DNA of 64,000 nt from Methanoculleus sp. (GTDB lineage: Archaea > Halobacteriota > Methanomicrobia > Methanomicrobiales > Methanoculleaceae). The first letter of the stretch is position 1. The number at the start of each line of letters is the position of its first letter. The notes under the pieces were generated by a model. The model made no database searches and was not told where the DNA came from. It saw only the letters and a list, made by a program, of their open reading frames with translations. The DNA is taken from the NCBI RefSeq assembly GCF_030019085.1, contig NZ_JASEFJ010000002.1, positions 1 to 64,000 of the forward strand, in the 5' to 3' direction. Below are positions 6,457 to 24,121 of this stretch, in pieces. The position numbers and the translations under genes are program-made.

Positions 6457-7149
6457 ATGAAGTTGATTACAGTTGCAGGTCCGCCATCTTCAGGTAAGAC
6501 CTCTGTGATACTCAAGACAATCGAAGCCCTTGGACAGCCAGCAGGAAGTGTGGGTGTTGTAAAGTTCGACTCGCTCACCTCCTTTGACCACCAGCGCTAC
6601 GATGAAGAGCAGATTCCCAACCAGACCGCTTTTGCAGGAAAGATCTGTCCGGATCATTTTTTCGTAAGCAATGTTGAAGGTGCGGTCGAATGGGGTTTAA
6701 AGAAGGGGTTGTCGGTTCTTGTCACAGAAAGTGCAGGTCTATGCAACCGGTGCTCGCCATATGTGAACGGGATTTTATCGGTTTGCGTAATTGACAATCT
6801 CTCCGGTATCAACACGCCGAGGAAGATCGGGCCAATGCTGAAATACGCCGACATCGTCGTTGTCACCAAGGGGGATATCGTTTCTCAGGCGGAGCGGGAG
6901 GTCTTTGCCTTCAATATCCGTGAGGTCAATGCATCGGCAACCGTTCTTTTCGTCAACGGAATTACCGGTCAGGGAGCGGTTATGCTTGCCCGCCACTGGC
7001 AGGACGCCCCTGAGATCCAGACGCTTCGCGACCGCAAACTCCGGTTTACCATGCCTGCTGCCATCTGTTCATACTGTACCGGTGAGACGCGTATCGGAGA
7101 GATCTACCAGATGGGGATGGTCAGGAGAGTGGAGTTTGACGACGTATGA
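6457..7149 (+). CDS. P-loop GTPase with two CxxC motifs (HypB/CobW-like)
   Basis: A 230-residue SIMIBI-type nucleotide-binding protein. It has a Walker A GPPSSGKT near the N-terminus, a base-recognition motif TKGD (about residue 137), and two cysteine pairs, ESAGLCNRC (about residues 90-98) and ICSYC (about residues 202-206). The layout resembles the metal-insertion GTPases HypB, UreG and CobW. The real partner is unknown. It overlaps the next gene by four bases, so it belongs with the ABC ATPase and DUF364 protein. A weak TATA about 30 bases upstream suggests its own promoter and a very short leader. A metallochaperone role is inference. Confidence 0.75.
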   Translation: MKLITVAGPPSSGKTSVILKTIEALGQPAGSVGVVKFDSLTSFDHQRYDEEQIPNQTAFAGKICPDHFFVSNVEGAVEWGLKKGLSVLVTESAGLCNRCSPYVNGILSVCVIDNLSGINTPRKIGPMLKYADIVVVTKGDIVSQAEREVFAFNIREVNASATVLFVNGITGQGAVMLARHWQDAPEIQTLRDRKLRFTMPAAICSYCTGETRIGEIYQMGMVRRVEFDDV

Positions 7150-8180
7150 AGCCCATTGATTATGTTGCAGAGGTTTCTTCTGTTCCACTTGGTGAGATCC
7201 TCCGGCGCTATCCTCTTGTGGCCGATTATCTCGCCAACATCCGGTTGAACGGGGTTGACGAAACCAGAACGTTACCGGAGGTCCTTGAGGATATCGATGA
7301 GGATATGCTTGAGGAGTTCGGGCTTGACCGTGAGGAGGTCATATACCATCTCTCTGCATTTCTTGCGGCGTTCTCTCCCGTGAAGAGTTCTGTTGACGAG
7401 ATATCCTCCATCACGATCCTGGGTGGACGGGACAAGGTGGGAAGACCTGAGATGGTCGAGTTGACTGTTACGCCCGGTGAGGTGGTAAGTATCGTAGGTC
7501 CGACGGGGTCGGGGAAGAGCAGGCTGCTTGAGGATATTGAGTGTCTTGCTCAGCGTGATACGCCAACAGCAAGGCAGATTCTCATCAACGGGTCGGTTCC
7601 GGACGTCAATAAGAGATTCACCTCAGGGGGAAAACTGGTGGCCCAGCTCTCGCAGAACATGAACTTTGTTGTGGATCTAACCGTGCAGGAGTTTCTGGAG
7701 ATGCATGCAAAAAGCAGGATGATCTCAGATTCTGCACCGGTTGTGGAGAAGTGTTTTGCGGTTGCAAATGCTCTCGCAGGTGAGAAGTTCACACCCGGGA
7801 CGAAGGTCACCCAGCTCTCCGGCGGGCAGTCACGGTCGTTGATGATCGCCGATACCGCTCTTTTGAGTTCCTCCCCGATCATCCTTATCGATGAACTCGA
7901 GAACGCCGGACTCGATCGGCGGGAGGCAATCAAACTCCTTATCGGCAACGAGAAGATCGTATTCATATCAACGCATGATCCGCTGCTGGCCCTCCGTGCC
8001 AATAAGCGGATCGTCATCCGGAACGGTGGTATTGCAAAGGTTATCGAGACGACCGCCGAAGAAGAACAGACGCTTCGAAAGATTGAAGCAATCGATTCCA
8101 TACTCCTTGATATTCGAAATCAAATCCGGGGAGGAGGGTTTGTCACAAAAGATAGTGTCCCGGAATTTCAGGAGAGATGA
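7146..8180 (+). CDS. ABC-type ATPase with N-terminal DUF1858-like domain
   Basis: A 344-residue soluble protein. The first roughly 75 residues (PLGEILRRYPLVADYL and following) look like a small helical DUF1858-type domain. The rest is one ABC ATPase domain: Walker A GPTGSGKSR (about residue 119), signature LSGGQSR (about residue 227), Walker B IILIDELENAG, and the H-loop STHD. No membrane partner is encoded nearby, so it is probably not a transporter but a mechanical ATPase, in the manner of the MCR activator A2. It is coupled to the GTPase before it and to the split DUF4213/DUF364 gene after it. Confidence 0.75.
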   Translation: MKPIDYVAEVSSVPLGEILRRYPLVADYLANIRLNGVDETRTLPEVLEDIDEDMLEEFGLDREEVIYHLSAFLAAFSPVKSSVDEISSITILGGRDKVGRPEMVELTVTPGEVVSIVGPTGSGKSRLLEDIECLAQRDTPTARQILINGSVPDVNKRFTSGGKLVAQLSQNMNFVVDLTVQEFLEMHAKSRMISDSAPVVEKCFAVANALAGEKFTPGTKVTQLSGGQSRSLMIADTALLSSSPIILIDELENAGLDRREAIKLLIGNEKIVFISTHDPLLALRANKRIVIRNGGIAKVIETTAEEEQTLRKIEAIDSILLDIRNQIRGGGFVTKDSVPEFQER

Positions 8181-8182
8181 TC

Positions 8183-8320
8183 ATGTGGGAATTATATGAT
8201 GCACTGATTGAAGGGATCCCAGACGACATCATCGTTGATGGTATTGTTGTTGGCGGGGAGATGACGTACGTTGAGGCAAACGGTGGCATCGGCCTTACCT
8301 CGTACCGTGATTATGTCTAG
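8183..8320 (+). CDS. DUF4213-like N-terminal half, ended by in-frame TAG
   Basis: This 45-codon frame begins MWELYDALIEGIPDDIIVDG and contains GIGLTSYRDY, which resembles the N-terminal DUF4213 domain that normally precedes DUF364 in one protein. A good ribosome site (AGGAGAGATGAT, overlapping the previous stop) lies before the ATG. Translation stops at TAG 8318-8320. The same frame resumes nine bases later in the DUF364 half. It is therefore either the first half of a disrupted gene, a readthrough gene, or a genuine split pair. Confidence 0.65.
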   Translation: MWELYDALIEGIPDDIIVDGIVVGGEMTYVEANGGIGLTSYRDYV

Positions 8321-8329
8321 CGTGCCCCG

Positions 8330-8947
8330 ATGATTACCGAAAACAGGATTGGAAAGCCATTAAAAGAGGTGGCCGGGTGTGTGAAGTCATGGAACTTTCG
8401 GGAGGCTTCTATCGGTCATGCGGCGATCAACGCCTGGTACAATCATCCGGATACTGCCAGGGTGGCAGGGATCGAGATCGCGGAGAAGAAGCGGGTTGAG
8501 GAACGACTGAAAGACCCGTTCATAAAGTCCCAGAACGTTGTGAAGGGCAGGAAGGTCTGTGTTGTAGGTCATTTTCCGTTCCTCGAGAAGCTGATTGCCC
8601 CGGTCTGTGACCTGAGTATTGTTGAGTGGGACCCGGAGGAAGGAGACTATCCGTATTCTGCCTGTGAGTATCTGCTGCCGGAGTCTGATTATGCGTTTTT
8701 GACCTGTGCTGCCGTCGGTGACAAAAGCATGCCGCGACTCCTTGAACTCTCAGAAAATGCAAAGGGTGTGACGATCGTGGGTCCTGGAACCCCGCTATCA
8801 TCAGTATTCTTTGATTACGGTGTCACCGATCTTTCGGGTTTTGTGGTAACAGATGTTACACTTGCCAGACGGATCGTTGCAGGAGCGGAAAGCCGGCGGA
8901 TATTCGGGGCGGGGATGAAGGTGGAGTACCTCCGACCGGAGGTTTGA
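8330..8947 (+). CDS. DUF364 protein (putative metal-chelation family), C-terminal half
   Basis: The 205 residues continue the family sequence directly after the TAG codon, in the same frame: the CVKSWNFREASIGHAAINAW region, then a Rossmann-like part with KVCVVGHFPFLEKL and a C-terminal TPLSSVFFDYGVTDLSG. Pfam describes DUF364 as possibly involved in heavy-metal chelation. No ribosome site precedes the ATG at 8330, so independent initiation looks weak. With the upstream GTPase and ABC ATPase it forms a putative metal-handling unit. Confidence 0.75.
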   Translation: MITENRIGKPLKEVAGCVKSWNFREASIGHAAINAWYNHPDTARVAGIEIAEKKRVEERLKDPFIKSQNVVKGRKVCVVGHFPFLEKLIAPVCDLSIVEWDPEEGDYPYSACEYLLPESDYAFLTCAAVGDKSMPRLLELSENAKGVTIVGPGTPLSSVFFDYGVTDLSGFVVTDVTLARRIVAGAESRRIFGAGMKVEYLRPEV

Positions 8948-10266: not shown

Positions 10267-11217
10267 ATGCGGAGGACAGCACCGCTAATTATCCTGGCAC
10301 TCATCTGTGCACTTCTAATCAGCGTGGGCTGTGCAGTCACCCTCGGACCGGCTGGCATCCCCATTAAGACCCTCCTATCTTCACCAACCACCCTGATGAT
10401 CTTCTGGGACGTTCGTCTTCCCAGGGTGATCACCGCGGCGCTGGTCGGTTGTGGGCTTGCCGTGGCGGGCACGGCGATGCAGGGGCTCTTCCGGAACCCC
10501 ATGGCAGACCCCTACATCATCGGTACCTCATCTGGCGGGGCGCTCGGGGCCACGATCGCCATAGTTCTCTTTGCCGGCAACGGCCGTCCCGTGCTGGCGT
10601 TCCTGGGAGCGATGGCCGCAACCTTCACCGTCTACTTCATCGCCAGGAGCGGGGGAAAGATCCCGGTCGAGACGTTGCTCCTCTCCGGTGTCGCACTCTC
10701 AACGCTTCTTTCAGCTCTCCTCTCCTTTCTGATGTATACCGCGGGGCGGAGCCTCCACCAGATCATGTTCTGGCTGATGGGTGGGTTCTGGAACGTATCC
10801 TGGAACGACTTCTTCATCGCTCTCCCTATCCTGATGGGGTGTGGAGGGGTCTACCTCTTCGCACGGGATCTCAACGTCCTCTCCCTGAACGAGGAGGATG
10901 CGATCCATCTCGGGGTGAACGTCGAGCAGGTAAAAGGGATACTCCTTGCTCTGAGCGCGTTCGTGACGGGGATAGCCGTTGCAGTAGCGGGATCGATCGG
11001 GTTCGTAGGGCTGATAACCCCTCACCTCATGCGTCTTATCGTCGGGCCAGACCATCGCGTCCTCATTCCAGCAGCCGCACTTGCCGGGGCCATCCTCCTT
11101 GTGTGGTCAGATACCCTCACCAGGACGTTTACAAACGATATGCCGGTCGGGATCATAACAGCATGTTTCGGTGCACCGTTCTTCATATACCTCCTGAGGA
11201 GCCGGATGAAAGCATGA
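10267..11217 (+). CDS. btuC: Corrinoid/iron-chelate ABC permease (FecCD/BtuC family)
   Basis: A 316-residue membrane protein with many helices and hallmark BtuC/FecD motifs: RLPRVITAALVGCGLAVAG, then GTAMQGLFRNPMADPYIIG, and GFVGLITPHLMRL near the C-terminus. It should form the homodimeric channel for a metal-chelate import system. It overlaps the ATPase gene by four bases (ATGA). Upstream AT-rich sequence around 10227-10250 could hold a TATA box for a nearly leaderless transcript. Substrate assignment to cobamide rests on the neighbours. Confidence 0.88.
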   Translation: MRRTAPLIILALICALLISVGCAVTLGPAGIPIKTLLSSPTTLMIFWDVRLPRVITAALVGCGLAVAGTAMQGLFRNPMADPYIIGTSSGGALGATIAIVLFAGNGRPVLAFLGAMAATFTVYFIARSGGKIPVETLLLSGVALSTLLSALLSFLMYTAGRSLHQIMFWLMGGFWNVSWNDFFIALPILMGCGGVYLFARDLNVLSLNEEDAIHLGVNVEQVKGILLALSAFVTGIAVAVAGSIGFVGLITPHLMRLIVGPDHRVLIPAAALAGAILLVWSDTLTRTFTNDMPVGIITACFGAPFFIYLLRSRMKA

Positions 11218-12470
11218 AGCCTATCGAGATCATCGGGGTCGACGTATCCTACGGGGCAAAGAAGATCCTGGAGGAGATCTCGTTCCACGCGGATAAGGGC
11301 GAGATCCTGGGGATCATCGGACCTAACGGTTCGGGGAAGACGACACTGCTCAAGGCGATGACCCGGGTCGTTGCCAGGGACTGCGGGGAGATCCTTCTCG
11401 AGAGCCATGACCTGGATACCCTGGGGCACCGTGAACTTGCCCGTCGGGTTGCGGTCGTTCCACAGGATATCTCGATCGGTTTTGACTACACGGTGCGTGA
11501 TATCGTCATGATGGGGAGACACCCCCACATCGGGAGGCTTGCCTCCGAGACGGCACGGGACGTGGAGATCTGTGAGCACGCCATGCGTCTTGCAAACGTC
11601 GCGCACCTTGTCGATACATCGGTGCACGATATCAGCGGTGGGGAACGCCAGAGGGTGCTCATCGCCAGGGCGCTTGCACAGGAACCAGAGATCCTCCTCC
11701 TCGACGAGGCTACCTCAAACCTGGATGTCAGTCACCAGGTCGAGATCCTAAACATCATCAGAGGCCTTACCGGGAGGATCACGGTGATCAGCGTCTTTCA
11801 CGACCTGAACCTGGCTGCATACTACTGTGATCGACTCCTCCTCCTCAAGGAGCGGAAGGTCTACGCCATCGGGGCACCTGCGGATGTCCTTACATGTGAG
11901 AACATCCGTGAGATCTTCGGGATGGAGACGCTCGTCAGACCACACCCACTGACCGGGAGACCCTACGTCCTGCCGGTCTACATGCAAACCACTGATGTCG
12001 GGGTGAACAGGCGGGTGCATGTCATCTGCGGTGGGGGGACGGGGTCGGATATCCTTTACCTGCTCCGTGCTGCAGGGTTCACTGTCACCTGTGGTGTCCT
12101 GAACGTCCTGGATACGGATTACGGGACGTCCATGCACCTGGGCATCTCCACCGTTGCAGAACCCCCTTTTCATGGCATAACCACGGCATCCCTTGCGGCT
12201 GCCAGGAAGTGGCTTGACCGGGCTGATGCCATAGTCGTGACGGCAATGCCTATAGGGCCCGGGAACCTCGATAACCTTCGTGTGCTGCTCGATTACCCGG
12301 GAAAGCCCATCATCATCTACGCCGGGAACGGCAGCGCCCGGATGGAGGACTACACCGGGGGCGAGGCAGATGCGGTTCTGGCTGAGATTGAGACTCGGGG
12401 GGCGTTGAGGGTCGAAGGAGCGGAGGATCTCATCGCCCTCCTCTCGAAAGGGCAGTTCGGTCGTGAATAG
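11214..12470 (+). CDS. btuD: Corrinoid ABC transporter ATPase with C-terminal extension (BtuD-like)
   Basis: A 418-residue ATPase. The ABC domain (residues 1-255) has Walker A GPNGSGKTT, the Q-loop VVPQD, signature ISGGERQR, Walker B ILLLDEATSNLD and a switch histidine in SVFHD. It is followed by about 155 residues of a separate alpha/beta domain starting near VHVICGGGTGSDILYLLRAA. Such extended BtuD proteins are known in archaea, but the extension's role is not. The start at 11214 overlaps the btuC stop. It drives uptake of the ligand held by the BtuF-like proteins downstream. Confidence 0.87.
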   Translation: MKPIEIIGVDVSYGAKKILEEISFHADKGEILGIIGPNGSGKTTLLKAMTRVVARDCGEILLESHDLDTLGHRELARRVAVVPQDISIGFDYTVRDIVMMGRHPHIGRLASETARDVEICEHAMRLANVAHLVDTSVHDISGGERQRVLIARALAQEPEILLLDEATSNLDVSHQVEILNIIRGLTGRITVISVFHDLNLAAYYCDRLLLLKERKVYAIGAPADVLTCENIREIFGMETLVRPHPLTGRPYVLPVYMQTTDVGVNRRVHVICGGGTGSDILYLLRAAGFTVTCGVLNVLDTDYGTSMHLGISTVAEPPFHGITTASLAAARKWLDRADAIVVTAMPIGPGNLDNLRVLLDYPGKPIIIYAGNGSARMEDYTGGEADAVLAEIETRGALRVEGAEDLIALLSKGQFGRE

Positions 12471-12533
12471 GCCCCGGGTCCCATGTGGGAGAAGACGGGG
12501 TCGCCGGTCTGAGAAGTTATTACGCTCAATGAG

Positions 12534-13616
12534 ATGCCTATTATGGTTATGCGATCCATACGCCTGACAATCTCTGTTTCGTTACTCGTGGTGTTCTTAC
12601 TTCTTGCCGCTACAGCGGGTGCTGTGCCCGTAACTGCCGGGGCGCCACCGGTAGCGATGGCAACGGCCGATGGCGGGCGCAGCGTAACGCTGACAGACGC
12701 TCTCGGGGAGACTGTCGTCATCCAGGGAAGGCCGGAGAGGATCATATCGCTTGCACCTTCCAACACCGAGATACTTTATGCCCTCGGGCTTGAGGACCGG
12801 GTGGTCGCCGTCACCGATTACTGTGACTACCCGCCGGAAACAGCCGATAAACCTACGGTTGGTGGATTCAGCACTGTCAACATCGAAAAGGTGATCGCGA
12901 TGAATCCGGATCTCATCCTTGCCGCGCCCGCCAATACGGAGGATCTCATCGACCGCTTGCGCTCGCTCGGGCTGACCGTCGTCACCCTCGACCCCCAGAC
13001 GATCGAGGACGTCCTGGATGAGATCGAACTTCTCGGCCGGGTGACCGGTAATGAGGCGGAGGCCTCGACGCTTGTTGCGGAACTGCAGGCGCGCATCGAT
13101 GCGGTGGTTGCAGAGACGGGAAACCGCACAGAACGCCCGTCTGTTGCTCACGTAATATGGTATGACCCGATCTGGGTCAGTGGCAGGGATACGTTCCAGG
13201 ACGAGGTCATCACGCTGGCTGGCGGGACAAATGCGTTTGGTTCGCGTGAGGGCTGGAGTATCGTCAGTCTCGAGGAATTTATTACCACCGACCCCGACTA
13301 CATCCTGGTCAGTTCTGGCAGCGGTATGGGTCAGGAGGGTTACGATGCCGTCTACAACTACATCGTGAGCGAACCCCGCCTCCAGAACCTTGATGCTGTC
13401 AGGGAAGGCCGTGTCTACGTCATCGATGCTGATATAGTCAGTCGCGGGGGACCGCGGATTGTGGACGCGCTGGAAGAGGTGGCGGCCATCCTCCAGCGGG
13501 AAACCCCGGCGCCGACCGCCCGGGCGACCACTGATGCGGCAGAGTCACCGGGGTCTGGTGTGGTCACGATAGTCTTTGCTCTGTTTGTGGTATTCCTGCT
13601 CTGGAAGGAGCGGTAG
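12534..13616 (+). CDS. btuF: Surface-anchored BtuF-like corrinoid-binding protein
   Basis: A 360-residue protein: signal peptide (about residues 1-35), a type III periplasmic-binding domain (about 45-320), then a short linker and a terminal hydrophobic helix. The binding domain has the SLAPSNTEILYALGL and VAVTDYCDYPPE motifs shared with BtuF. The C-terminus, SPGSG followed by a hydrophobic stretch and KER, looks like a PGF-CTERM anchor with PGF altered to PGS. The exact ATG is uncertain because 12534, 12543 and 12549 are all in frame and none has a clear ribosome site. It is close in sequence to the binding domain at the end of the gene at 17616. Confidence 0.85.
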   Translation: MPIMVMRSIRLTISVSLLVVFLLLAATAGAVPVTAGAPPVAMATADGGRSVTLTDALGETVVIQGRPERIISLAPSNTEILYALGLEDRVVAVTDYCDYPPETADKPTVGGFSTVNIEKVIAMNPDLILAAPANTEDLIDRLRSLGLTVVTLDPQTIEDVLDEIELLGRVTGNEAEASTLVAELQARIDAVVAETGNRTERPSVAHVIWYDPIWVSGRDTFQDEVITLAGGTNAFGSREGWSIVSLEEFITTDPDYILVSSGSGMGQEGYDAVYNYIVSEPRLQNLDAVREGRVYVIDADIVSRGGPRIVDALEEVAAILQRETPAPTARATTDAAESPGSGVVTIVFALFVVFLLWKER

Positions 13617-13736
13617 GATCGAAAAAGTTTGACCCGGGCAGGGGGCCAATATTTACCGCGAGATTTCCTGAGCGAGGGTTGCTGCCACAGCCCGCAATTT
13701 CTCTTTTTATAAACTTATAATAAACCATAAAAATGC

Positions 13737-13750
13737 CTGGAGGTCTCCAG
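13737..13750. repeat. 14-bp inverted repeat upstream of the propeller/DUF4430 gene
   Basis: CTGGAGGTCTCCAG has two perfect six-base arms around GT. It lies in the 230-base gap after btuF, about 30 bases before an AT-rich TATA region. It could be an operator or the hairpin of a terminator. No regulator gene is adjacent. Confidence 0.5.
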
Positions 13751-13779
13751 AAACCAGGTTGAGACTCGGCTACATAAGC

Positions 13780-13800
13780 AATTTATATATAATTATATAA
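13780..13800 (+). promoter_or_regulatory. TATA-rich promoter of the propeller/DUF4430 gene
   Basis: ATTTATATATAATTATATAA is the most AT-rich stretch in the neighbourhood and matches an archaeal TATA element. It gives the gene at 13849 a promoter separate from btuCDF, with a leader of about 35-45 bases. Confidence 0.55.
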
Positions 13801-13848
13801 AATTAATTTTGTAAAGTTTTATTAATTTAGATAAAGTATATTTGTACT

Positions 13849-16800
13849 ATGGCATCAGAACGGGTGCTCCCCCTTGCGGGATCTATTATCCTTTTGATAC
13901 TGCTCGTTGGAGTGGCGAGCGCATCATATCCAATGTTCCACCACGATCAACAACGGACTGGCTACGTCCCCGAAGAGGGGCCGCAGACAGACGCCATCCT
14001 CTGGGTGGTGGAGACCGCTGAATGGGCTGATGGTTCGCCTGCGGTGTATAACGGAAAAGTCTTCGTCCCCACATGGCCTGATATGAACTTCGGCGAAGCC
14101 AACCTGATGGGGCTTGTCTGCTATGACGCGGTCACCGGTGTGGAGGTCTGGACGAATGAACTCGGCGGCGCCAACGTTGGTTCCGTCTCAGGGGTCGCTG
14201 TCGCTGACGGTTGTGTCTACCTCGGCGGGACCGATGGACGACTCTACTGCATCGATGAGGAGACGGGGGATACGCTCTGGGTGAGCGATCGGATTGACAC
14301 CACCGGCTATTTTGGGCTCTCATCATCACCTCTCGTCTACGATGGAAAAATCTACGCCCTCTCCGCTTCAGATGGCGTGCTGCACGCCTTCAACCCTGAT
14401 GGTACCGAAGCCTGGAGATTTGAGACCGGTAACGGTGTGATATACTTCACCTCTCCTGCCGGTTACGATGGAAAGATCTACTGCGCAGGAAACAGGAGCC
14501 AGATCTTCTGCATCGATCCTGCAACGCAGACCGCCATCTGGACATTCAATCAGGGGGGATCGGTAAAGTCTTCGCCGGTCATCGGCGGGGACGGAACAGT
14601 CTATTTCACCACCTCGTCGCGGTGCTATGCCCTCGACAGCACCACGGGCACAGAGCGCTGGAACAGTTCGGTGACCGGAACGATGTCGACCCCTGCCCTT
14701 GCCGGTAGGTATATCTATGCAGGGGCATATGATGGCCTCCACTGCCTTGACGCCTCGACCGGCGATGAGGAATGGCATTTTCCAGCAAAAGAGGTCAATG
14801 TTGCACCGATCGTTGCCGGTAACCTCGTCTATGCCGCGACAAATGAGGAGACAGGAACCCTGTATGCGGTGGACGCCGGGACCGGCGAACCGGTATGGTC
14901 GTACTCCCTCGAGGCCCCGGGCGACGGGACTTACTCCGCGTTCTACACATCATCACCCGCCGTATCGGGCGGTGTTCTCTACATCGGAGCCGAGAACAAC
15001 CACTTCTACGCCTTCGGGGAAGGAGAGATACCTGGAGATACGTTTGCCGGATGGAGCGGAACTGTCGGTCTAACAGACGGTCAGACCTTCCGGGTCACTC
15101 CGTTCAACAACGATAGTGCCATCTACATCATCAACCGGACCTCAGCCCTCGGGGCTCTGGATGCCGCCGCAGTGAAAGGCGGGTTCAATTACACAGTCCA
15201 GGAGACGGAATGGGGTCTGTTCCTCTACTCTATCGGCGGTATCGCCTACAACGAGACCTCCTGGGACTCCTGGCTCTATTCAGTCAACGGCGTAGCCGCT
15301 GAGGTCGGGGCAGCCGATTATTCTCTCAAGGATGGGGATGTCGTCACCTACTGGTATGGTCCCTGGGGTTCATCGCCAGAAACCGCCCGTGCGGTAGTCA
15401 ACATCACTGTCTCCATCCCGCTACCCCCCGCACCGGTCACCACGTTATGGGACGGAACGGTGACCCTCACAGAAGGAGAGACCTTCCAGTTCGTCCCCTC
15501 GAACAACGAAAGTGCCTCGTACACGATTAACCGCACCACTGACCTCGGGGCGCTCGCTGCCGCCGCAGTGAGCGGCGGTTTCACCTTCAACGCCTCCGAT
15601 GCCTGGTATGCCTCCTACGGGTCGTTCCTGCTTGAAGATATCGCCGGCATTTCAAACGAGGACTGGACAGAGGAGAATGCACGCACATGGTCGATCTTCA
15701 TCAACGGTGCGGCAGCTCCAGCCGGACTCGGAGCGAACTCTCTCGCGGACGGCGACAGGCTCGCCTTCTATTACTGCCCTGCGGATCCATCCACGTATGC
15801 CCCGCTCACCGACCAGGCCGACTACGCCGTCATCATCACCGTCAGCCTTCGCGACTTTGCGTGGGAGGGATCGGTCAGTTTAACAGACGGTCAGACCTTC
15901 CAGGTCACTCCGTTCAACAACGAGAGTGCCATCTACATCATCAACCGGACCTCAGCCCTTGGGGCTCTGGATGCCGCTGCAGTGAAAGGCGGGTTCAATT
16001 ACACCCTTCAGGAGACGGAATGGGGTCTGTTCCTCTACTCTATCGGCGGTATCGCCTACAACGAGACTTCCTGGGACTCCTGGCTCTATTCAGTCAACGG
16101 CGTAGCCGCTGAGGTCGGGGCAGCCGATTATTCTCTCAAGGATGGGGATGTCGTCACCTACTGGTATGGTCCCTGGGGTTCATCGCCAGAAACCGCCCGT
16201 GCGGTAGTCAACATCACTGTCTCCATCCAGAAACCGGGTGGTGGTAGTGGCGGAGATGGCGGTGGCGGCGGTGATTCGTCACCCGCCTGGGTCAGCGTCA
16301 CCCTTGCAGCGGGCACATTCAATCTCACCGCGACGAACAGTGGAAAGACCTACACGGTCGATCGGCAGACCGCGCTGGGGGCCCTCGATGCGACGGGGAT
16401 CGCATACACCATCAACGACGCTTATTACCAGGAATACGGCTCGCTCTTCATTGACTCCATCAGGGGCAGGGCGAACGAAGGGGCCGCGGGCTGGATGTAC
16501 CAGGTGAACGCTGAAAGCCCTGCCGTCGGTGCAAACGTATATACCGTCCAGAACGGCGACGAGGTTGTCTTCTTCTGGAGCGAGAGTATGACTTCAACCC
16601 CGGCAACATCGCGGGATGCCATCTTCATCAAGGTCGTGACCCCGGCGTCGTCCGGTGGTTCTGGATCTGGTTCATCAGGAAGCAGCTCCGGCAGATCTGG
16701 TTCCACATCAACCACCGCGACCACGGGAACCGGTGGATCAGGAGAGATCCTCTCGTTCTCCCTTGGGTTACCGGCAGGAGCCACTGTCAAACTCGGAGAG

Positions 16801-17619
16801 TGGGGTCAGAGTATCTCGGTTGATCTCACCGCGGGAGATAGATCCACGGAACAGGTAAACATATCAGGAAACACCATCATCATCAACCGGGAAGGTGTAA
16901 CACTGGTCATCACCGCCCGGAACATCGATGAGAAGGGTGACCTGGCCACGGGCCTGATCGAGCATGTCACGGCATCGGTCGGGCCCGTCAGGGCCAATTT
17001 CAGCACGACGGGCGTTATCGCTGCATCAGTAAACTTGAACCTCACGGGCCTCCCGGGGGACGGCCAGATCAGGATCTCACTGAATGAGACCACCGATGCA
17101 GACACAGCGCGCGCATTCCATCTTGCCTCGGCAGAGAATGGCGAAGATATCACCGCAGTTGCCTACAGCATGACCGTCACGCGGATCAACCTTGAGAACG
17201 GTAGAGATATCGCCGGAGCGGTGATCACGATGGTCATAAACCCTGCTTGGGTGGATGAACATGGTGGTCTGGATGCTATCAGGATCGTGCGGTCTGCGGA
17301 GGACGGTACCTGCACTATACTTGATACCCGGCCAGTCGGTAGCGATGCAGATGGTAACCTGATCTTCGAAGCCGTATCTCCTGACGGTCTTTCCACTTTC
17401 GGCCTTCTGGCGGTCATGGCGGTTCCGGCCGCCGGAGAAGAGGAGACCGGGGCGATCACCCCGGCAACCACTCCTGGTAGCCTTACCACGCCGGCGATGC
17501 GCACAGCGGCAACGCTGTCCCTCTTATCACCGCACCTCATTATCGGTGTGATCGGTGTGTGCGCGATCCTGCTTGTGGGGGCGGCATCCATCCTTATCAA
17601 GCGGAGGAGAACCCGATGA
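13849..17619 (+). CDS. Exported beta-propeller protein with four DUF4430 (transcobalamin beta-like) domains
   Basis: A 1256-residue surface protein. A signal peptide (1-25) is followed by a PQQ-type beta-propeller (about 30-395) with repeated blades such as LYCIDEETGDTLW and LYAVDAGTGEPVW. Four DUF4430 domains follow, at about 403-524, 533-668, 672-794 and 813-934. Domains 1 and 3 are nearly identical in DNA. Gly/Ser linkers flank domain 4. A beta-rich stalk and a C-terminal membrane helix with RRRTR close the protein. DUF4430 resembles the C-terminal cobalamin-contacting domain of transcobalamin. The last four bases overlap the next gene, so the two are coupled. Cobamide binding is inferred and not shown. 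Confidence 0.82.
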   Translation: MASERVLPLAGSIILLILLVGVASASYPMFHHDQQRTGYVPEEGPQTDAILWVVETAEWADGSPAVYNGKVFVPTWPDMNFGEANLMGLVCYDAVTGVEVWTNELGGANVGSVSGVAVADGCVYLGGTDGRLYCIDEETGDTLWVSDRIDTTGYFGLSSSPLVYDGKIYALSASDGVLHAFNPDGTEAWRFETGNGVIYFTSPAGYDGKIYCAGNRSQIFCIDPATQTAIWTFNQGGSVKSSPVIGGDGTVYFTTSSRCYALDSTTGTERWNSSVTGTMSTPALAGRYIYAGAYDGLHCLDASTGDEEWHFPAKEVNVAPIVAGNLVYAATNEETGTLYAVDAGTGEPVWSYSLEAPGDGTYSAFYTSSPAVSGGVLYIGAENNHFYAFGEGEIPGDTFAGWSGTVGLTDGQTFRVTPFNNDSAIYIINRTSALGALDAAAVKGGFNYTVQETEWGLFLYSIGGIAYNETSWDSWLYSVNGVAAEVGAADYSLKDGDVVTYWYGPWGSSPETARAVVNITVSIPLPPAPVTTLWDGTVTLTEGETFQFVPSNNESASYTINRTTDLGALAAAAVSGGFTFNASDAWYASYGSFLLEDIAGISNEDWTEENARTWSIFINGAAAPAGLGANSLADGDRLAFYYCPADPSTYAPLTDQADYAVIITVSLRDFAWEGSVSLTDGQTFQVTPFNNESAIYIINRTSALGALDAAAVKGGFNYTLQETEWGLFLYSIGGIAYNETSWDSWLYSVNGVAAEVGAADYSLKDGDVVTYWYGPWGSSPETARAVVNITVSIQKPGGGSGGDGGGGGDSSPAWVSVTLAAGTFNLTATNSGKTYTVDRQTALGALDATGIAYTINDAYYQEYGSLFIDSIRGRANEGAAGWMYQVNAESPAVGANVYTVQNGDEVVFFWSESMTSTPATSRDAIFIKVVTPASSGGSGSGSSGSSSGRSGSTSTTATTGTGGSGEILSFSLGLPAGATVKLGEWGQSISVDLTAGDRSTEQVNISGNTIIINREGVTLVITARNIDEKGDLATGLIEHVTASVGPVRANFSTTGVIAASVNLNLTGLPGDGQIRISLNETTDADTARAFHLASAENGEDITAVAYSMTVTRINLENGRDIAGAVITMVINPAWVDEHGGLDAIRIVRSAEDGTCTILDTRPVGSDADGNLIFEAVSPDGLSTFGLLAVMAVPAAGEEETGAITPATTPGSLTTPAMRTAATLSLLSPHLIIGVIGVCAILLVGAASILIKRRRTR
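15071..15418. repeat. 348-bp intragenic repeat, copy 1 (DUF4430 domain 1)
   Basis: Matches 15881-16228 with eight mismatches counted by eye, offset 810 bases, same frame. It covers almost one whole DUF4430 domain. The intervening domain 2 is much more diverged. Confidence 0.93.
15881..16228. repeat. 348-bp intragenic repeat, copy 2 (DUF4430 domain 3)
   Basis: Second copy of the DUF4430-domain repeat. The final 150 or so bases of both copies are identical, which suggests recent duplication or conversion. Confidence 0.93.
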
Positions 17620-19598
17620 AGCGGATCGGTCTCACCCTCCTCATCCTCCTCCTCTGTGTCGCCTCGTGCGGCGCTTATCCACTGAACACGGATGACCCTA
17701 GCATCCAGGTCTCGATTGATTATATCCGCGGTTGCCAGAAGAGTGACGGCGGTTTCGGGGAGATCGGGCGTGAGAGTAGTCCCGGCACGACGTCGTGGGT
17801 GATAATGGCAGCTGTCGCTGCTGGCGAAGACCCGCGGAACTGGGCGAACGGAGGAAACTCGACCATTGACTACCTCCGCTCGATGAACGACGAGATCCTG
17901 GCAAAAGGAGGAACCGTAGATATCGCCCGCACCATCCTGACTCTGGTCGCGATCGGAGAAGACCCCCGCGCTTTTTGCGGGACTGACTACGTCACGGAAC
18001 TGAAATCCCGGGTAAAACTCGATGGCCAGGCAGGAGATCACGTTTACACGACCATCTGGACGATCATAGCCCTGGCTTCGGTCGGCGAAGATACTGATTC
18101 ATCGGCTGCATGGCTGATAGCCAGACAGAACACCGATGGTGGATTTCCCTGGACGCCGGGCGCTGAGAGCGACCCGGACGATACCGGTGCCGCGCTTGAA
18201 GCCCTCGCAGCGTCTGGCGTCCCCAGTAATGCGACTGTGGTGCAAAAGGCTCTCGCCTACCTGAAAGGAATGCAGCAGGAGGACGGTGGGTTCCATTATG
18301 GTGGGACGAGTGCTACAAACGCTGCCTCCGATGCCTGGGTTATCCAGGGTATCGTCGCCTCAGGAGAGAATCCCGCCGCGTGGATGGTGGGGGAGAGGGG
18401 TGTGGTTGAGCATCTCCTTGGTTTCCAGAACCCCGACGGATCGTTTCGCTACACCGCTTACGTGACCGACAGTCCCTGCCGGATGACGGCAAGTGCGATA
18501 CCTGCACTCCTTGGAATGCCTTACCCTATAACATCTGCACAGGTTCAGCAGCCACAATCCTCCACCACGGAACCGCACGAAACGATCGCTCCCCTGGTCG
18601 CAACCCCAACCCCAACCGTTACAACCGCTTCGGTGGTGACGGATAGCAGCCAGAGATCCGTTACAGTGACCGATGACTTCGGGGAGACCGTCACCATCAG
18701 GGGAACCCCACAGAGGATCGTATCGCTTGCCCCATCAAACACCGAGATCCTGTATGCCCTCGATCTGGATGACCGGGTGGTCGGCGTCACCGATTACTGC
18801 AACTACCCGCCCGAAGCGGCCAGTAAACCGCGGGTTGGCGGCTACAGCACCGTCAACATCGAGAAGGTGATCGCAGCGGAACCAGATCTGGTTATAGCTG
18901 CGTTCGGGAATACCGAGGATGTTGTCAACCGTCTGCGGTCGCTGGGGCTAACCGTTGTCTCCCTTAACCCCCTGACGGTCGAAGACGTCCTGCACGACAT
19001 CGAACTTGTCGGTGTGGTGACCGGCCAGGAGGAAGAGGCCTCAACGCTCGTTGAGGAACTCCGGGCCCGCGTAGAGGCGGTGACCGGGAAGACGGAGACA
19101 CTGGAGGAAAAACCATCGGTCACCCATGTCGTCTGGTATGACCCGATCTGGGTCAGCGGCCAGGATACGTTTCAGGACGAGGTGATAAGGATGTCCGGGG
19201 GTGTCAACGTATTCGATCAGGTCTATGGATGGGGTATCATCAGCCTTGAAGAGTTTATCGTCACGGATCCGGATTACATCCTGGTCAGTTCCGGAGATGG
19301 TATGGGTGAGAGGGGGCGCGATATCGTCTATGATTACTTCATGAATGAACCACGGTTGCAGGAACTCACCGCAGTCAGGGAAGGCCGCGTCTACGTCATC
19401 GATGCTGATGCCGTCAGTCGTGGGGGACCGCGGATTGTGGACGCGCTGGAAGAGATGGCGGCCATCCTCCACCCGGACCTCTTTGAGGCAGGCAGCCCGA
19501 AAGAGACCACCGTGGCTCAGTCGCCGGGTTTCAACGTGATCACTCTTGCCTGTGCGTTCCTTGTTCTTCTCCTGGTCCATGAAAGAGGCAGGAAGTGA
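17616..19598 (+). CDS. Exported alpha/alpha-barrel plus BtuF-like binding protein with PGF-CTERM anchor
   Basis: A 660-residue product. A signal peptide (1-22) is followed by squalene-cyclase/prenyltransferase-type alpha-alpha repeats (about 30-305), seen in recurring QKSDGGFGE, QNTDGGFPW, QQEDGGFHYGG and QNPDGSFRY motifs. A Thr/Pro linker leads to a BtuF-like domain (about 345-625) with SLAPSNTEILYALDL and GVTDYCNYPPE. The end, SPGF plus hydrophobic helix and basic tail, is a PGF-CTERM sorting signal. Transcobalamin has the same kind of alpha-alpha barrel as its N-terminal domain. I chose ATG 17616 because it overlaps the upstream stop as ATGA and begins a clean signal peptide. Confidence 0.84.
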   Translation: MKRIGLTLLILLLCVASCGAYPLNTDDPSIQVSIDYIRGCQKSDGGFGEIGRESSPGTTSWVIMAAVAAGEDPRNWANGGNSTIDYLRSMNDEILAKGGTVDIARTILTLVAIGEDPRAFCGTDYVTELKSRVKLDGQAGDHVYTTIWTIIALASVGEDTDSSAAWLIARQNTDGGFPWTPGAESDPDDTGAALEALAASGVPSNATVVQKALAYLKGMQQEDGGFHYGGTSATNAASDAWVIQGIVASGENPAAWMVGERGVVEHLLGFQNPDGSFRYTAYVTDSPCRMTASAIPALLGMPYPITSAQVQQPQSSTTEPHETIAPLVATPTPTVTTASVVTDSSQRSVTVTDDFGETVTIRGTPQRIVSLAPSNTEILYALDLDDRVVGVTDYCNYPPEAASKPRVGGYSTVNIEKVIAAEPDLVIAAFGNTEDVVNRLRSLGLTVVSLNPLTVEDVLHDIELVGVVTGQEEEASTLVEELRARVEAVTGKTETLEEKPSVTHVVWYDPIWVSGQDTFQDEVIRMSGGVNVFDQVYGWGIISLEEFIVTDPDYILVSSGDGMGERGRDIVYDYFMNEPRLQELTAVREGRVYVIDADAVSRGGPRIVDALEEMAAILHPDLFEAGSPKETTVAQSPGFNVITLACAFLVLLLVHERGRK

Positions 19599-19599
19599 T
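19590..19599 (+). promoter_or_regulatory. Ribosome binding site fixing a GTG start
   Basis: AGGAAGTGAT differs in one base from the ideal AGGAGGTGAT and ends five bases before the GTG at 19605. It supports that GTG over the ATG at 19598, which is in another frame. Confidence 0.7.
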
Positions 19600-19604
19600 G
19601 CAGC

Positions 19605-20726
19605 GTGCGGCAGAGCCAAACCCTAACCCTACTTTTTGCTGTTGTTGCGCTCGGCAGTCTCGCCTGCCCGGTCGCCGGGCAGGAGGTGTCTGGCAGCGAG
19701 GTCTGGCGATCCGGGGTTGGAGACCCGGTTATGGCGGTTGCGCTCTCAGAGGACGGTATATGCGGTCTTGTCATCACGGAATGTAATATCTACGTCTATG
19801 ATCCGAACGCCACGGTTATCTGGCGTTACCCGGTATCCCACGGCGAGAGTGTGGCCATCTCATCTGACAGCGAACGCATCGTTGCCGCTGGGGACCATCT
19901 TCTGCTGTTTGACCGGGAAGGAACCATCATATGGCGTTATAAACCGGATTCCCGTATCCGGGACGTTGCTCTCACCGCTGACGGAAGGACCATCTGCACG
20001 GCAACCGATGTCGGCCTCCGCGTCTTCTCCCTGAACGAGGAGCGAACGGTCGCCAACGTCTCCTGGACGTTTGATGCGGGAGACCGGATCAAAAGTGTAT
20101 CGGTTGATGGCGAGGCTACGGGTATCGTTGCCGGCGGGGCCGCGGGTGATGTATACTTCCTCAGCGGGGACGGGCACCTTCTCTGGACCTACAGAGCGGG
20201 TAATAGCGGCATCAAGGTGGTCATCTCCCAAGACGGGTCGACAGTTGCCGCAGCATCCAGCCAGCAGGTGATCCTCCTGAATCGAAACGGACGGCTACTC
20301 TGGAAGTCTTCGGTGTCGGGGAGGATCGCCGATGTTGCGATCTCCAGAGACGGTTCGACTCTTATCCTGGCAGATGGAGGTGTTGCAGTCTACAACCGGA
20401 GCGGAGAGAACATATGGACATACGCAACAGAAGAGGGTATCAGGTCTGTCTCCGCTCCATCTGGGAGTATGAAAATTCTAACCGGTGCGTTTGACGGGAG
20501 TGTATCGTTATTTGATCTGCAACCAGAAACCATGTCGGGCGGGGCACCAGATAATACTTTATCTAACGCCACCACCGCTGCCGCTGAACCATCTCAAACC
20601 AGCGGTGCCCTCCCTAATGGGCAGACAACCTCGCAACATGAGGCGAGGGTACTCTCCCCGGCAACGCCGGTTGCTGTGGTCGCATGTGTTGCCGCCTTGA
20701 TGTGGTGGCGAAGAGAGGGACGGTAG
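19605..20726 (+). CDS. Exported single-domain beta-propeller protein with C-terminal membrane helix
   Basis: A 373-residue protein with a signal peptide (about 1-25). A propeller follows (about 30-305), built of repeats such as IWRYPVSHGESVAISSDSER, IWRYKPDSRIRDVALTADGR and LWKSSVSGRIADVAISRDGS. A Thr/Ser-rich stalk, one membrane helix and an RREGR tail complete it. The blades resemble WD40/PQQ-like repeats, not an enzyme. It starts seven bases after the alpha-alpha/BtuF gene and is probably co-transcribed with it. Bacterial BtuG is also a surface propeller that binds cobalamin, which makes a role in corrinoid capture attractive but unproven. Confidence 0.75.
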   Translation: MRQSQTLTLLFAVVALGSLACPVAGQEVSGSEVWRSGVGDPVMAVALSEDGICGLVITECNIYVYDPNATVIWRYPVSHGESVAISSDSERIVAAGDHLLLFDREGTIIWRYKPDSRIRDVALTADGRTICTATDVGLRVFSLNEERTVANVSWTFDAGDRIKSVSVDGEATGIVAGGAAGDVYFLSGDGHLLWTYRAGNSGIKVVISQDGSTVAAASSQQVILLNRNGRLLWKSSVSGRIADVAISRDGSTLILADGGVAVYNRSGENIWTYATEEGIRSVSAPSGSMKILTGAFDGSVSLFDLQPETMSGGAPDNTLSNATTAAAEPSQTSGALPNGQTTSQHEARVLSPATPVAVVACVAALMWWRREGR

Positions 20727-20738
20727 GCCATATTTTCT

Positions 20739-21482
20739 ATGCCCACACTGAATTCTATCGGCTGCTCAACCTGGTGCCTGATGGATCGGTCACTTGAGGA
20801 GGCGCTTGACCTGATCTCCAGCCACACGTGTCGTGCGGAGATCCTCTCTGACAGCCTTCACTCCCTCTTTATATCTGAAGAAGCCTGCCATTCATTCGAC
20901 CTCCAGTATACGGTTCACGCCCCTACAGCTGATATAAACATAGCATCCGAGAACGAGTGCCTCCGGAAGGCGGCCATCCAGGTCATCGGAGACCTCGCGG
21001 AGGTCTGCGACCGTATCGGCGCTGTGAGGCTGGTTATCCATCCCGGGCACCTATGGGATGGGGGAACACGCGGTGCCGCACAACAGGCCCTCGATCGGTC
21101 GCTCGACGACCTTGCCGTGATGCAGCAGGAGGTAAACGTACGGTTTGCTGTCGAGAACATGGGGACGTGGGAGGTCTGTTTCTTCAGGGAACCGGAGTTC
21201 CTTGGTCGTCTTGCCGATACCGGACTGGGATTTGCCCTCGATGTGGGCCATGCCCACGCAAACGGCAACCTGGAAACATTCCTGGAACTGGGGGGAGCGA
21301 TCCACGTTCACCTGCACGACAACTGCGGTAACCGGGATGACCACCTGGCATGCGGTGAGGGGAACATCGATTTTCGTCGCGTGCTGGCAGCCATCCCGGC
21401 GGGCGCCACGAAAGTTGTCGAATCGGTCTCGTTTCAACAGTTCGAGCGAAGCCTTGATTTCCTGGAGCGTATCACCCCATGA
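20739..21482 (+). CDS. Xylose isomerase-like TIM-barrel protein (AP endonuclease 2 family)
   Basis: A 247-residue TIM barrel with the family's metal-binding positions: VIHPGH, FAVENMGT (Glu), FALDVGHAHANG (Asp/His), VHLHDN and a final KVVESV (Glu). Members include sugar isomerases and endonuclease IV. The substrate here cannot be told from sequence. It lies 12 bases after the propeller gene but has no ribosome site, so transcription linkage is uncertain. It is convergent with the hypothetical gene at 21487. Confidence 0.75.
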   Translation: MPTLNSIGCSTWCLMDRSLEEALDLISSHTCRAEILSDSLHSLFISEEACHSFDLQYTVHAPTADINIASENECLRKAAIQVIGDLAEVCDRIGAVRLVIHPGHLWDGGTRGAAQQALDRSLDDLAVMQQEVNVRFAVENMGTWEVCFFREPEFLGRLADTGLGFALDVGHAHANGNLETFLELGGAIHVHLHDNCGNRDDHLACGEGNIDFRRVLAAIPAGATKVVESVSFQQFERSLDFLERITP

Positions 21483-21893: not shown

Positions 21894-22679
21894 TTATACG
21901 ATCAGCACGGCCAAATACCCGACTGCCGCAGCCCCCATGCAGCAGATCCCGGCATAATCAGCCCTGCCCGGGGAGAGTTCACGCATAGGTGTTCGTTTCC
22001 CCGAGCGGTAACCCCGCAGGTCAATGGTCAGCCCGAGAACCGTTGCTTTCCCCAGGGTATTCGAGACCAGGGGGATGATGATGGGGAAGAGTCCTCTCAC
22101 CTTCCCCGCAACCCCCTTCCCGGGGTTGTAGGCGCGGGCAAGTTGCGCCTCGTGAATCCGTTTTGCCTCGAGCTGGAGGCTCGGGATGAACCGGAGCGCG
22201 ATGAGGAACATGAGCGTGTAATCGACCGGCATCCTGAGACGGTCCAGCAGATGGACAAGGTCGCGTGGCTGGGTGGATATGACCAGGAGCTGGAATGCAA
22301 ATAGCATCGCGGCGAACCGTAGCGACATCGCAACCGCGAGGTCGATCGCTCCCACGGTGACGGGCAACGCCCCGCCTATGACCGGGACAGACGGCGGTAT
22401 AAGGTAGCAGAGGGTCTCGCCGCTCCGTATGGTAAGGACGGTGAGGATGAGAAGGCTCACCGCAAGCGAGATCAGCAGCGGAACCTGGCGGAGGAGGTCG
22501 CGGGCAAGCCCGCTTGCTATCGCTACAGCCACGACCCCCGCCGCAAGCACCGTGAGCATCATTGTATCGGCTGTCAGCACCGCAAGCGCCACAACGACGA
22601 TCGCAAAGATCAGTTTGGTGAGAGGGTGGAGCCTGTGAAAGGCGCTCTCCCGTGTGACATACTGCATAATCTCGGACAT
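21894..22679 (-). CDS. ecfT: Energy-coupling factor transporter transmembrane protein EcfT (CbiQ family)
   Basis: A 261-residue membrane protein with about six helices. It has the two alanine-arginine coupling motifs typical of EcfT cytoplasmic helices: AQLARAYNPGKG and a second region near LTIDLRGYRSGKR. Its start overlaps the end of the fused ATPase gene by 70 bases, which is long but keeps the family N-terminus. It couples ATP hydrolysis by the fused EcfA to ligand release from the S component. Confidence 0.85.
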   Translation of the reverse strand: MSEIMQYVTRESAFHRLHPLTKLIFAIVVVALAVLTADTMMLTVLAAGVVAVAIASGLARDLLRQVPLLISLAVSLLILTVLTIRSGETLCYLIPPSVPVIGGALPVTVGAIDLAVAMSLRFAAMLFAFQLLVISTQPRDLVHLLDRLRMPVDYTLMFLIALRFIPSLQLEAKRIHEAQLARAYNPGKGVAGKVRGLFPIIIPLVSNTLGKATVLGLTIDLRGYRSGKRTPMRELSPGRADYAGICCMGAAAVGYLAVLIV

Positions 22680-24121
22680 GTATCCTCCTGATAAGTTTCT
22701 CCATCCTGGACGATTTTCCCCTGTTTTAGCCTGACGATGCGGTCGGCACAGGTCGCGCCAACTCGCATATCATGTGTAACCATGACGATCGCGTGCCCTT
22801 CCTCTCGCAGGCGTTCAAGGATCTCCATGACCCTGCCGGACTCGCGGGCGTCAAGGCCGGTTGTGGGTTCGTCAAGCACGATTACGTCTGGTTTCATGGC
22901 GATGACACAGGCGATTGCCAGCCGCTGGCGTTCTCCCCGCGAGAGTGAGCGGGGGTAGACCGTTCTCCGGTGCAGGAGACCTACCTCGTGCAGGGCAGCC
23001 TCGATCCGTTCTCCGGAAGCGCCGGGGTAGATGTTCTCGAGACCAAACGCTACCTCCTCCTCCACGGTATCCGCAAAGAGCATGGTGTCGGGGTTCTGGA
23101 ATACGAGTCCCACGTGGCGCGCGAGTTCCGATATCGGGGTTGTCGCGGCGTCGAGTCCGGCGACGATGACGCTGCCATCTGTGGGGCGGAGCAGACCGTT
23201 GAAGTGTTTGATGAGCGTCGTCTTTCCGGACCCGTTCTCCCCCACCACCGCCACGATCTCGCCCGGTGATACCTCAAAGTCGATACCCGCGACGGCCTCG
23301 ATCCCATCGTAGCGGTGGACGAGTCCATGGACAGATATGATTGGGGAAGCATCGCTACAACGGGGAATCATCCTCCGGTTGCCCGTCAATGGGGTGCTGG
23401 AGGCTCTCTCATTCCGCATCACCTGCCCCGGCGTGCCGTCGGCGACGATCGTTCCATCCTCGATGATTATCATCCTGTCTGCGATGGCTGCAAGTTCGCC
23501 GATCTTCTGCTCGACGACGAGCACAGCTGTGCCCTCACGTGCAAGTCGCTGGAGGACGGTGGATACCGCAGCGGTCGCTTCTGTATCCAGTTCGGCGGTG
23601 GGTTCGTCCAGGATCAGGATCTCTGTTCCCAGGGCGAGGGTTGCAGCGATGGCAACCCGCTGCTTCTGTCCGCCGGAGAGGGTGTGAGGCGCGCGGTCCG
23701 CCAGTGCTGTGATCCCGGTCGATTCCATCACCTCCTGTAACCGCCGGCGCATCTCATCGCGCGAAAGACCCAGGTTCTCAAGCCCGGAGGCCACCTCCTC
23801 CTCGACGGTCGTGAAGATGAGCTGGGCATCGGCGTCGTCAAAGACCACCCCGAGATGTCTCCCGATCTCGCTCATGTCCCTGTAGTCACGGACGTTCCTG
23901 CCAAGGATGCTGACCTGTCCTTTGAGCGTGCCCCCGTAATCGTGGTAGAGGATCCCGGACGCCGCAAGAGCGAGGGTTGTCTTACCCGCACCTGTGGGTC
24001 CGGTGACAAATACGATCTCTCCCTTAGCGACGGTCAGGTTGATCCGCTTTAGTGCGGGAGTCTCCGACCCTGGATAGGTATAGGAGACGTCCTTGAGGGA
24101 GAGGGCGGTCTCAGGACTCAT
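22610..24121 (-). CDS. Fused double ECF transporter ATPase
   Basis: A 503-residue protein with two complete ABC domains. The first has GPTGAGKTT, LSGGQKQR and ILILDEPTAELD. The second has GENGSGKTT, LSRGERQR and VIVLDEPTTGLD. It replaces the separate EcfA1 and EcfA2 of bacteria. The start MSPETALSLK at 24121 is favoured over one at 24154, which would run far into the S component. It overlaps ecfS by 11 bases. Position between S and T genes makes the assignment firm. Substrate is unknown. Confidence 0.88.
   Translation of the reverse strand: MSPETALSLKDVSYTYPGSETPALKRINLTVAKGEIVFVTGPTGAGKTTLALAASGILYHDYGGTLKGQVSILGRNVRDYRDMSEIGRHLGVVFDDADAQLIFTTVEEEVASGLENLGLSRDEMRRRLQEVMESTGITALADRAPHTLSGGQKQRVAIAATLALGTEILILDEPTAELDTEATAAVSTVLQRLAREGTAVLVVEQKIGELAAIADRMIIIEDGTIVADGTPGQVMRNERASSTPLTGNRRMIPRCSDASPIISVHGLVHRYDGIEAVAGIDFEVSPGEIVAVVGENGSGKTTLIKHFNGLLRPTDGSVIVAGLDAATTPISELARHVGLVFQNPDTMLFADTVEEEVAFGLENIYPGASGERIEAALHEVGLLHRRTVYPRSLSRGERQRLAIACVIAMKPDVIVLDEPTTGLDARESGRVMEILERLREEGHAIVMVTHDMRVGATCADRIVRLKQGKIVQDGETYQEDTCPRLCSMSHGRAPFTGSTLSPN

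Follow-up and report, generated by a model that had tools for sequence, protein, structure and literature searches.

Why should a methanogenic archaeon encode, directly beside a vitamin B12-type importer, exported proteins assembled from the kinds of domain that make up the animal B12 carriers? The question is raised by a 64,000-nucleotide stretch of DNA from Methanoculleus sp. (assembly GCF_030019085.1, contig NZ_JASEFJ010000002.1, positions 1 to 64,000; hereafter the window), part of a near-complete Methanomicrobiales genome, in which a unit of seven genes, all in the same direction, occupies positions 10267-21482 of the forward strand. In order, the unit consists of btuC, btuD, btuF, the genes for three exported proteins named here P4, P5 and P6, and a CbiR-like gene. 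Going by genes and folds, the cluster is predicted, with good confidence, to be a cell-surface salvage system for cobamides, that is, vitamin B12-type corrinoids. The domain identities, the DUF4430 fold, the linkage with importer genes and the association with riboswitches in bacteria are established.

DUF4430 domains and the alpha/alpha toroid

P4 (13849..17619, +) is an exported protein made up of a PQQ propeller (approximately residues 20-400; PQQ_2, 3e-39), four DUF4430 domains (8e-42), a C-terminal domain and a transmembrane tail. The four DUF4430 stretches (domains 1 to 4 at 15052..15426, 15439..15888, 15859..16248 and 16339..16653, all +) all scored above the PF14478 gathering score of 23.8 bits, domain 4 with 53.9 bits. 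When a profile built from domains 1-3 and their relatives was compared with the PDB, only transcobalamin-1 (E=0.0023) and transcobalamin-2 were matched, and a wider DUF4430 profile retrieved haptocorrin first (4kki, E=8.5e-6), followed by 3u7z, a structure from Ruminococcus gnavus, by transcobalamin-2 (5no0, 0.01) and, more weakly, by whole transcobalamin (2bb5) and intrinsic factor. The profile of domain 4 alone gave chance matches only against the PDB. In the AlphaFold2 model of domain 1 (predicted local distance difference test score, pLDDT, 95.7), a helix (32-43) is followed by strands 47-52 and 55-61, that is, by a beta-hairpin inserted after the helix, which is the defining mark of the transcobalamin clade of the beta-grasp fold (PMC1796856). 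All 16 Foldseek matches of this model in the PDB at E<=0.001 were transcobalamin, intrinsic factor or haptocorrin, with 3u7z ranking directly after them; the TM-scores were moderate (0.49-0.64), as expected since identity was just 14-26%. The profile search, the model and the structure comparison therefore agree with the first-pass annotation, made from the sequence without database searches, which had likened DUF4430 to the C-terminal beta domain of transcobalamin, and they place the domain within the transcobalamin family. Judged from profiles and model, DUF4430 is the transcobalamin beta domain, the B12-contacting beta-grasp module. With 94% identity between them, domains 1 and 3 of P4 go back to a recent duplication inside the gene. 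In several genera the subtype represented by domain 4 has a gene of its own, giving split gene pairs.

P5 (17616..19598, +) is exported as well and joins an alpha/alpha toroid (17661-18620, +; SQHop_cyclase_C/Prenyltrans) to a BtuF domain (18651-19475, +; Peripla_BP_2, 2e-38), followed by a transmembrane tail. The toroid model (pLDDT 93.4) comprises 12 core helices in six hairpins, and its best matches in both sequence and fold were squalene-hopene cyclases, MstE and protein prenyltransferases. Among 51 toroid relatives, residues D171, D173 and T175 of a D-x-D-D-T motif were invariant and D174 nearly so. The domain had initially been read as a barrel with the fold of the transcobalamin N-terminal domain, joined to a BtuF-like domain; the fusion stands and the general alpha6/alpha6 fold appears to, with terpene cyclases and prenyltransferases resembling the toroid more than the alpha domain of transcobalamin does. 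Profile and model suggest that the toroid shares its fold class with that alpha domain. In the window the toroid and the DUF4430 domains are on different chains, while a single chain of transcobalamin carries the alpha domain followed by the beta domain.

Conservation in archaea and riboswitch operons in bacteria

In a sample of 199 Methanomicrobiales genomes, DUF4430 was present in 65 and the toroid in 51, and 40 neighbourhoods were read, namely 31 with a toroid and nine with DUF4430 but no toroid. All 31 toroid loci had DUF4430, 30 the toroid-BtuF fusion and 30 a PQQ propeller; btuC and btuD were found in 29, a second propeller in 24 and the CbiR-like gene in 19. One of the two toroid loci without btuCD has a contig end nearby. 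The nine toroid-free neighbourhoods provide a natural control: btuC, btuD, btuF and cbiR were found in none of them, meaning that toroid plus DUF4430, rather than DUF4430 alone, marks the system. The recurrence of the gene set across the order indicates that it is not a chance assembly, and the co-occurrence with BtuCDF that the first-pass annotation had pointed to as a check was borne out by the 29 loci with btuC and btuD beside the toroid. A separate btuF occurred in only eight of the 31 loci, and 21 of the 29 loci with btuCD had no BtuF other than the toroid-BtuF fusion; from this anatomy, the fusion must be the binding protein of the importer.

The domains are also shuffled among more distant archaea. 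A GTDB search with the toroid, followed by domain annotation, showed that the fusion partner of the toroid in Archaeoglobaceae is DUF4430 and not BtuF, with separate btuF and btuC genes alongside, and that the domain order of this DUF4430-toroid chain is reversed relative to transcobalamin. Methanophagales encode each part by a gene of its own. Because the fusions combine them, toroid, DUF4430 and BtuF are linked pairwise.

A few neighbourhoods merit separate mention. The toroid locus lacking an intact toroid-BtuF fusion is that of Methanogenium cariaci, owing to frame shifts: in strain JCM 10550 (L066 / L110), btuD and the genes for P4, P5 and P6 are split into many short frames, reflecting either pseudogenisation or sequencing errors. 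A contig from a metagenome-assembled genome labelled 'Bacteroidaceae' (L153) carries a cluster laid out like the Methanocorpusculum cluster of L142 and is probably a misbinned archaeal contig. L067 and L068 encode proteins in which three to six DUF4430 domains stand in tandem, with neither btu nor toroid genes close by, and these point to other roles of DUF4430 in the same genomes.

Toroids approximately 36-47% identical to that of P5 were found in 33 bacterial loci, mostly from Clostridia/Syntrophomonadaceae/Peptococcaceae and Actinomycetota. The operons start with a surface layer (S-layer)-anchored toroid/DUF4430 protein or a PQQ propeller, followed by a DUF4430 lipoprotein, and continue with the T and A components of an energy-coupling factor (ECF) transporter, the toroid, often with an S-layer anchor, and an ECF S component. 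A cobalamin riboswitch (Rfam RF00174) was located upstream on the operon strand in 20 of the 33 loci, and the 13 riboswitch-free loci are all cut by a contig edge before the operon start. That is, the riboswitch was present in every one of the 20 loci retaining that start. Its distance to the first gene was within approximately 220 bases in 17 of the 20; L118, L146, L125 and L152, all counted in the 20, have it at 0.9 kb (L118), at the predicted start (L146) and approximately 2 kb upstream (L125 and L152). In three loci (L113, L115 and L128) a PQQ propeller is the first gene under the riboswitch, which ties the propellers to the function too. In L117, L118, L125, L145 and others, the genes under the riboswitch encode surface proteins with toroid and DUF4430 domains, a DUF4430 lipoprotein and all components of an ECF transporter. 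The S component of these transporters received no curated B12 name, folate and riboflavin S models scoring best, below their NCBIfam cut-offs. By their gene content, these operons are candidates for a class of ECF cobamide transporters.

Gene layout, importer and neighbouring genes

The three genes at the start of the unit encode, side by side, the Pfam families of a BtuCDF importer. The BtuC-like permease (10267..11217, +; FecCD, 9.2e-92) had the vitamin B12 permease BtuC as its best NCBIfam match (351 bits, cut-off 461), the BtuD-like ATPase with a C-terminal extension (11214..12470, +; ABC_tran, 1.4e-32) matched the corrinoid ATP-binding cassette (ABC) transporter ATPase best (344 bits, cut-off 537), and the stand-alone BtuF-like substrate-binding protein (12534..13616, +; Peripla_BP_2, 4.9e-42), anchored by a C-terminal helix (transmembrane helices 13-31 and 338-356), was closest to the models for BtuF (126 bits, cut-off 234) and a PGF-CTERM-anchored substrate-binding protein. 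Corrinoid BtuC, BtuD and BtuF models scored best or near-best for the importer genes. P6 (19605..20726, +; Pfam propeller matches) is an exported PQQ/WD40-type propeller with a transmembrane tail. Each of BtuF, P4, P5 and P6 has a signal-like hydrophobic N-terminal helix and one C-terminal helix, so that open reading frames, Pfam domains and terminal helices all agree with the description of BtuC, BtuD and BtuF next to three exported proteins. PGF-CTERM (PF18204) was not matched in the four protein tails at E<=10; hence, of the membrane-helix or PGF-CTERM tails originally suggested, the anchor is confirmed as a membrane helix only.

The six genes named by the first-pass annotation (10267-20726) are genuine long co-directional open reading frames with the coordinates given there; overlooked was the seventh, the CbiR-like gene (20739..21482, +), 12 bases downstream of P6. 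Four-base overlaps join btuC to btuD and the P4 gene to the P5 gene, and six bases separate P5 from P6. An AT-rich gap of 232 bases precedes P4, which suggests that the cluster is made up of two transcription units.

The seventh gene encodes a cytoplasmic triosephosphate isomerase (TIM) barrel of the AP-endonuclease-2 type, which scored 59.8 bits with the CbiR model NF041277 (cut-off 105) and closely resembles the uncharacterised MJ1311 as well. The cut-off was reached in no genome of Methanomicrobiales searched, and the protein is therefore called CbiR-like. Residues H60, H101, E139, D168, H171, H191, D200, H202 and E228 were invariant in 14 CbiR-like sequences, and these His, Asp and Glu residues represent the metal-type set of the superfamily, complete in this protein. 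The gene is a plausible but not proven candidate for an enzyme of the cobamide-remodelling type. Mok et al. 2020 recorded CbiR homologues in 275 bacterial taxa and a single archaeal taxon.

The earlier remark that Mtr is encoded in the same window was likewise correct: mtrE, mtrD, two mtrA genes and mtrH are present. MtrA carries a cobamide. In Methanofollis-type loci, which belong to another family, mtrA and mtrH lie approximately 1-2 kb from the btu and cbiR genes, and they are also near the cluster in other Methanoculleus; since this placement recurs in two families in all, mtr is not a chance neighbour. The two mtrA genes of the window are in tandem (3445-4167 and 4387-5127), the second also matching mtrG at its C-terminus, and Methanofollis-type loci have such a pair too. 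Between mtrH and the btu cluster (6457-8947) are genes for a HypB-like GTPase, a soluble ABC-ATPase-like protein and a protein with no NCBIfam match, possibly serving the maturation of metal or corrinoid proteins. On the opposite strand (21894-24680, -) lies an ECF transporter consisting of a CbiQ-like T component, a fused A-A' and a 189-residue multi-helix S candidate without a family match; among the neighbourhoods read, it adjoins the cluster in Methanoculleus-type loci and L054. The S candidate (24111-24680) was considered as a counterpart of the S component of the bacterial operons and rejected, no similarity being found.

Interpretation and comparison with known systems

How might the parts work together? 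We infer the following order of hand-over, together with the role of the propellers, which are most likely scaffolds or additional binders. Membrane-anchored P4 would collect a corrinoid on its DUF4430 domains, and these domains and the toroid of P5 would probably close on it, much as B12 is held between the two domains of transcobalamin. The ligand would then pass to the BtuF domain of P5 or to the separate BtuF, either of which would dock on BtuCD for ATP-driven import. The CbiR-like enzyme may strip foreign lower ligands, allowing the cell to rebuild its own cobamide, e.g. for Mtr. A more far-reaching version can be put forward only tentatively, and as a whole is rather to be doubted: the DUF4430 domains of P4 and the toroid of P5 would represent a split transcobalamin, two tethered chains closing on one corrinoid, which the fused BtuF would receive directly and deliver to BtuCD, and the animal carriers would derive from a stock that Archaeoglobi and Firmicutes have in rearranged form as their single-chain DUF4430-toroid proteins.

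Surface capture of corrinoids by transcobalamin-like parts feeding BtuCD, as the first-pass annotation had proposed, is well supported by the DUF4430 fold, the BtuCD linkage, the Archaeoglobi fusion, the riboswitches and mtr. A number of observations nevertheless weigh against it. The matches of BtuC, BtuD, BtuF and the CbiR-like protein are all under the curated NCBIfam equivalog cut-offs, and the Rfam scan found no riboswitch in the 64-kb window itself. The six-hairpin fold of the toroid was recovered, but transcobalamin has no place among the best 50 fold matches listed for it, the transcobalamin Pfam model PF01122 was unmatched in the host genome and in the toroids, and the toroid has no detectable specific sequence match to the transcobalamin alpha domain. 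Moreover, the host probably makes corrinoids itself, since it has kept CbiD (G000:C22:180780), which 168 of the 199 Methanomicrobiales genomes and most genomes with the cluster also have, and there is no clear anticorrelation between the cluster and corrinoid synthesis. Corrin auxotrophy as the reason for the cluster was rejected on these CbiD data. The retention of CbiD means that the cluster would represent salvage beside synthesis, a common combination, and would not replace synthesis.

Do these points favour another ligand, such as a tetrapyrrole, haem, an iron-siderophore or some unknown metabolite, taken up by reused transcobalamin-like parts? The kept CbiD and the unmet cut-offs of the Btu proteins would fit, as would the fact that the Peripla_BP_2 and FecCD families also carry siderophores and haem, and Burroughs et al. 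2007 assigned no ligand to the archaeal members, given that B12 synthesis is frequent in archaea with such domains, and suggested a 'distinct metabolite' (PMC1796856). With salvage beside synthesis, such a metabolite is no longer needed as an explanation, though it keeps a small probability. Set against this reading are the related toroids in cobalamin-riboswitch operons, in all 20 complete bacterial cases, the CbiR-like and mtr neighbours, and the mostly corrinoid identity of the best BtuC, BtuD and BtuF models, in addition to how commonly salvage accompanies synthesis; it is accordingly unlikely. That the toroid is instead a terpene-cyclase-type enzyme modifying the ligand or a lipid, and not a binding module, might be argued from its squalene-hopene cyclase and MstE matches and its conserved D-x-D-D-T residues, but this is highly improbable: export of the toroid and its fusion to BtuF, to DUF4430 or, in bacteria, to S-layer anchors make prenyl substrates a poor fit, and its operon context is transport under cobalamin riboswitches. 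Finally, many surface proteins contain PQQ propellers, repeats and anchors, and toroid-free DUF4430 proteins occur away from btuCD (none of nine linked), so that P4, P5 and P6 could be imagined as structural surface-layer components next to a B12 importer, with no part in uptake. The btuCD linkage across many genera (29 of 31 loci), the direct fusions of the toroid to BtuF and to DUF4430 and the riboswitch control in bacteria leave this idea with hardly any probability.

Cobamide salvage at the cell surface thus remains the preferred reading, and the cluster connects archaeal DUF4430 members with a BtuCDF importer, with Mtr as a corrinoid enzyme and, via homologues, with cobalamin riboswitches. 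Archaeal B12-carrier modules whose ligand has been open since 2007 gain a concrete, testable job, and DUF4430-toroid proteins of methanogens, Archaeoglobi and many Gram-positive bacteria gain an annotation. The cluster also provides proteins with which to examine whether methanogens capture cobamides at their surface, how B12 passes from a surface binder to an importer when the cell lacks an outer membrane, and how transcobalamin originated. In the literature searched, with subscription journals mostly outside it, we found no paper on a transcobalamin-like archaeal BtuCDF system and no biochemical test of any prokaryotic member of this kind; a paper on corrinoid starvation in Dehalobacter holds no toroid or DUF4430 data. 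What is new is the archaeal, BtuCDF-coupled form, the Firmicutes class having been predicted in 2007.

That prediction concerned the transcobalamin-like clade of SLBB domains, whose toroid and propeller fusions and CbiO/CbiQ operons led Burroughs et al. 2007 to propose B12 scavenging in Gram-positive bacteria/Firmicutes and to derive the beta domain of the animal B12 carriers from bacterial scavenging systems (PMC1796856). The present cluster has in common with that clade the beta-grasp domain with its hairpin insert, export, and toroid, propeller and transporter partners, but its transporter is BtuCDF, not ECF, its toroid is fused to BtuF, its DUF4430 repeats follow a propeller on a chain of their own, and the unit includes a CbiR-like gene. 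With the BtuCDF systems of E. coli and of the Halobacterium type it shares the FecCD permease, the ABC ATPase and the Peripla_BP_2 binding protein, whereas here a second BtuF is fused to the toroid, being the sole BtuF in most relatives, and equivalog cut-offs are unmet. The CbiR phosphodiesterase (PMC7733943) likewise has an AP-endonuclease-2 TIM barrel, metal-type residues and cobamide-gene neighbours; the window protein differs in its score (59.8/105 bits) and its closeness to MJ1311. BtuG, a surface lipoprotein of Bacteroides reported from Bacteroidetes only (PMC6143338), is also a surface propeller beside B12 transport genes, but the propellers of P4 and P6 are of the generic PQQ/WD40 type and BtuG (PDB 3DSM) was outside the best 60 of 550 propeller matches; the initial view of P6 as a further propeller stands. 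Lastly, animal transcobalamin, intrinsic factor and haptocorrin have a C-terminal beta domain equivalent to DUF4430 and probably share the general alpha6/alpha6 architecture of the toroid, whereas in the window toroid and beta domain are on separate, membrane-anchored chains tied to an ABC importer.

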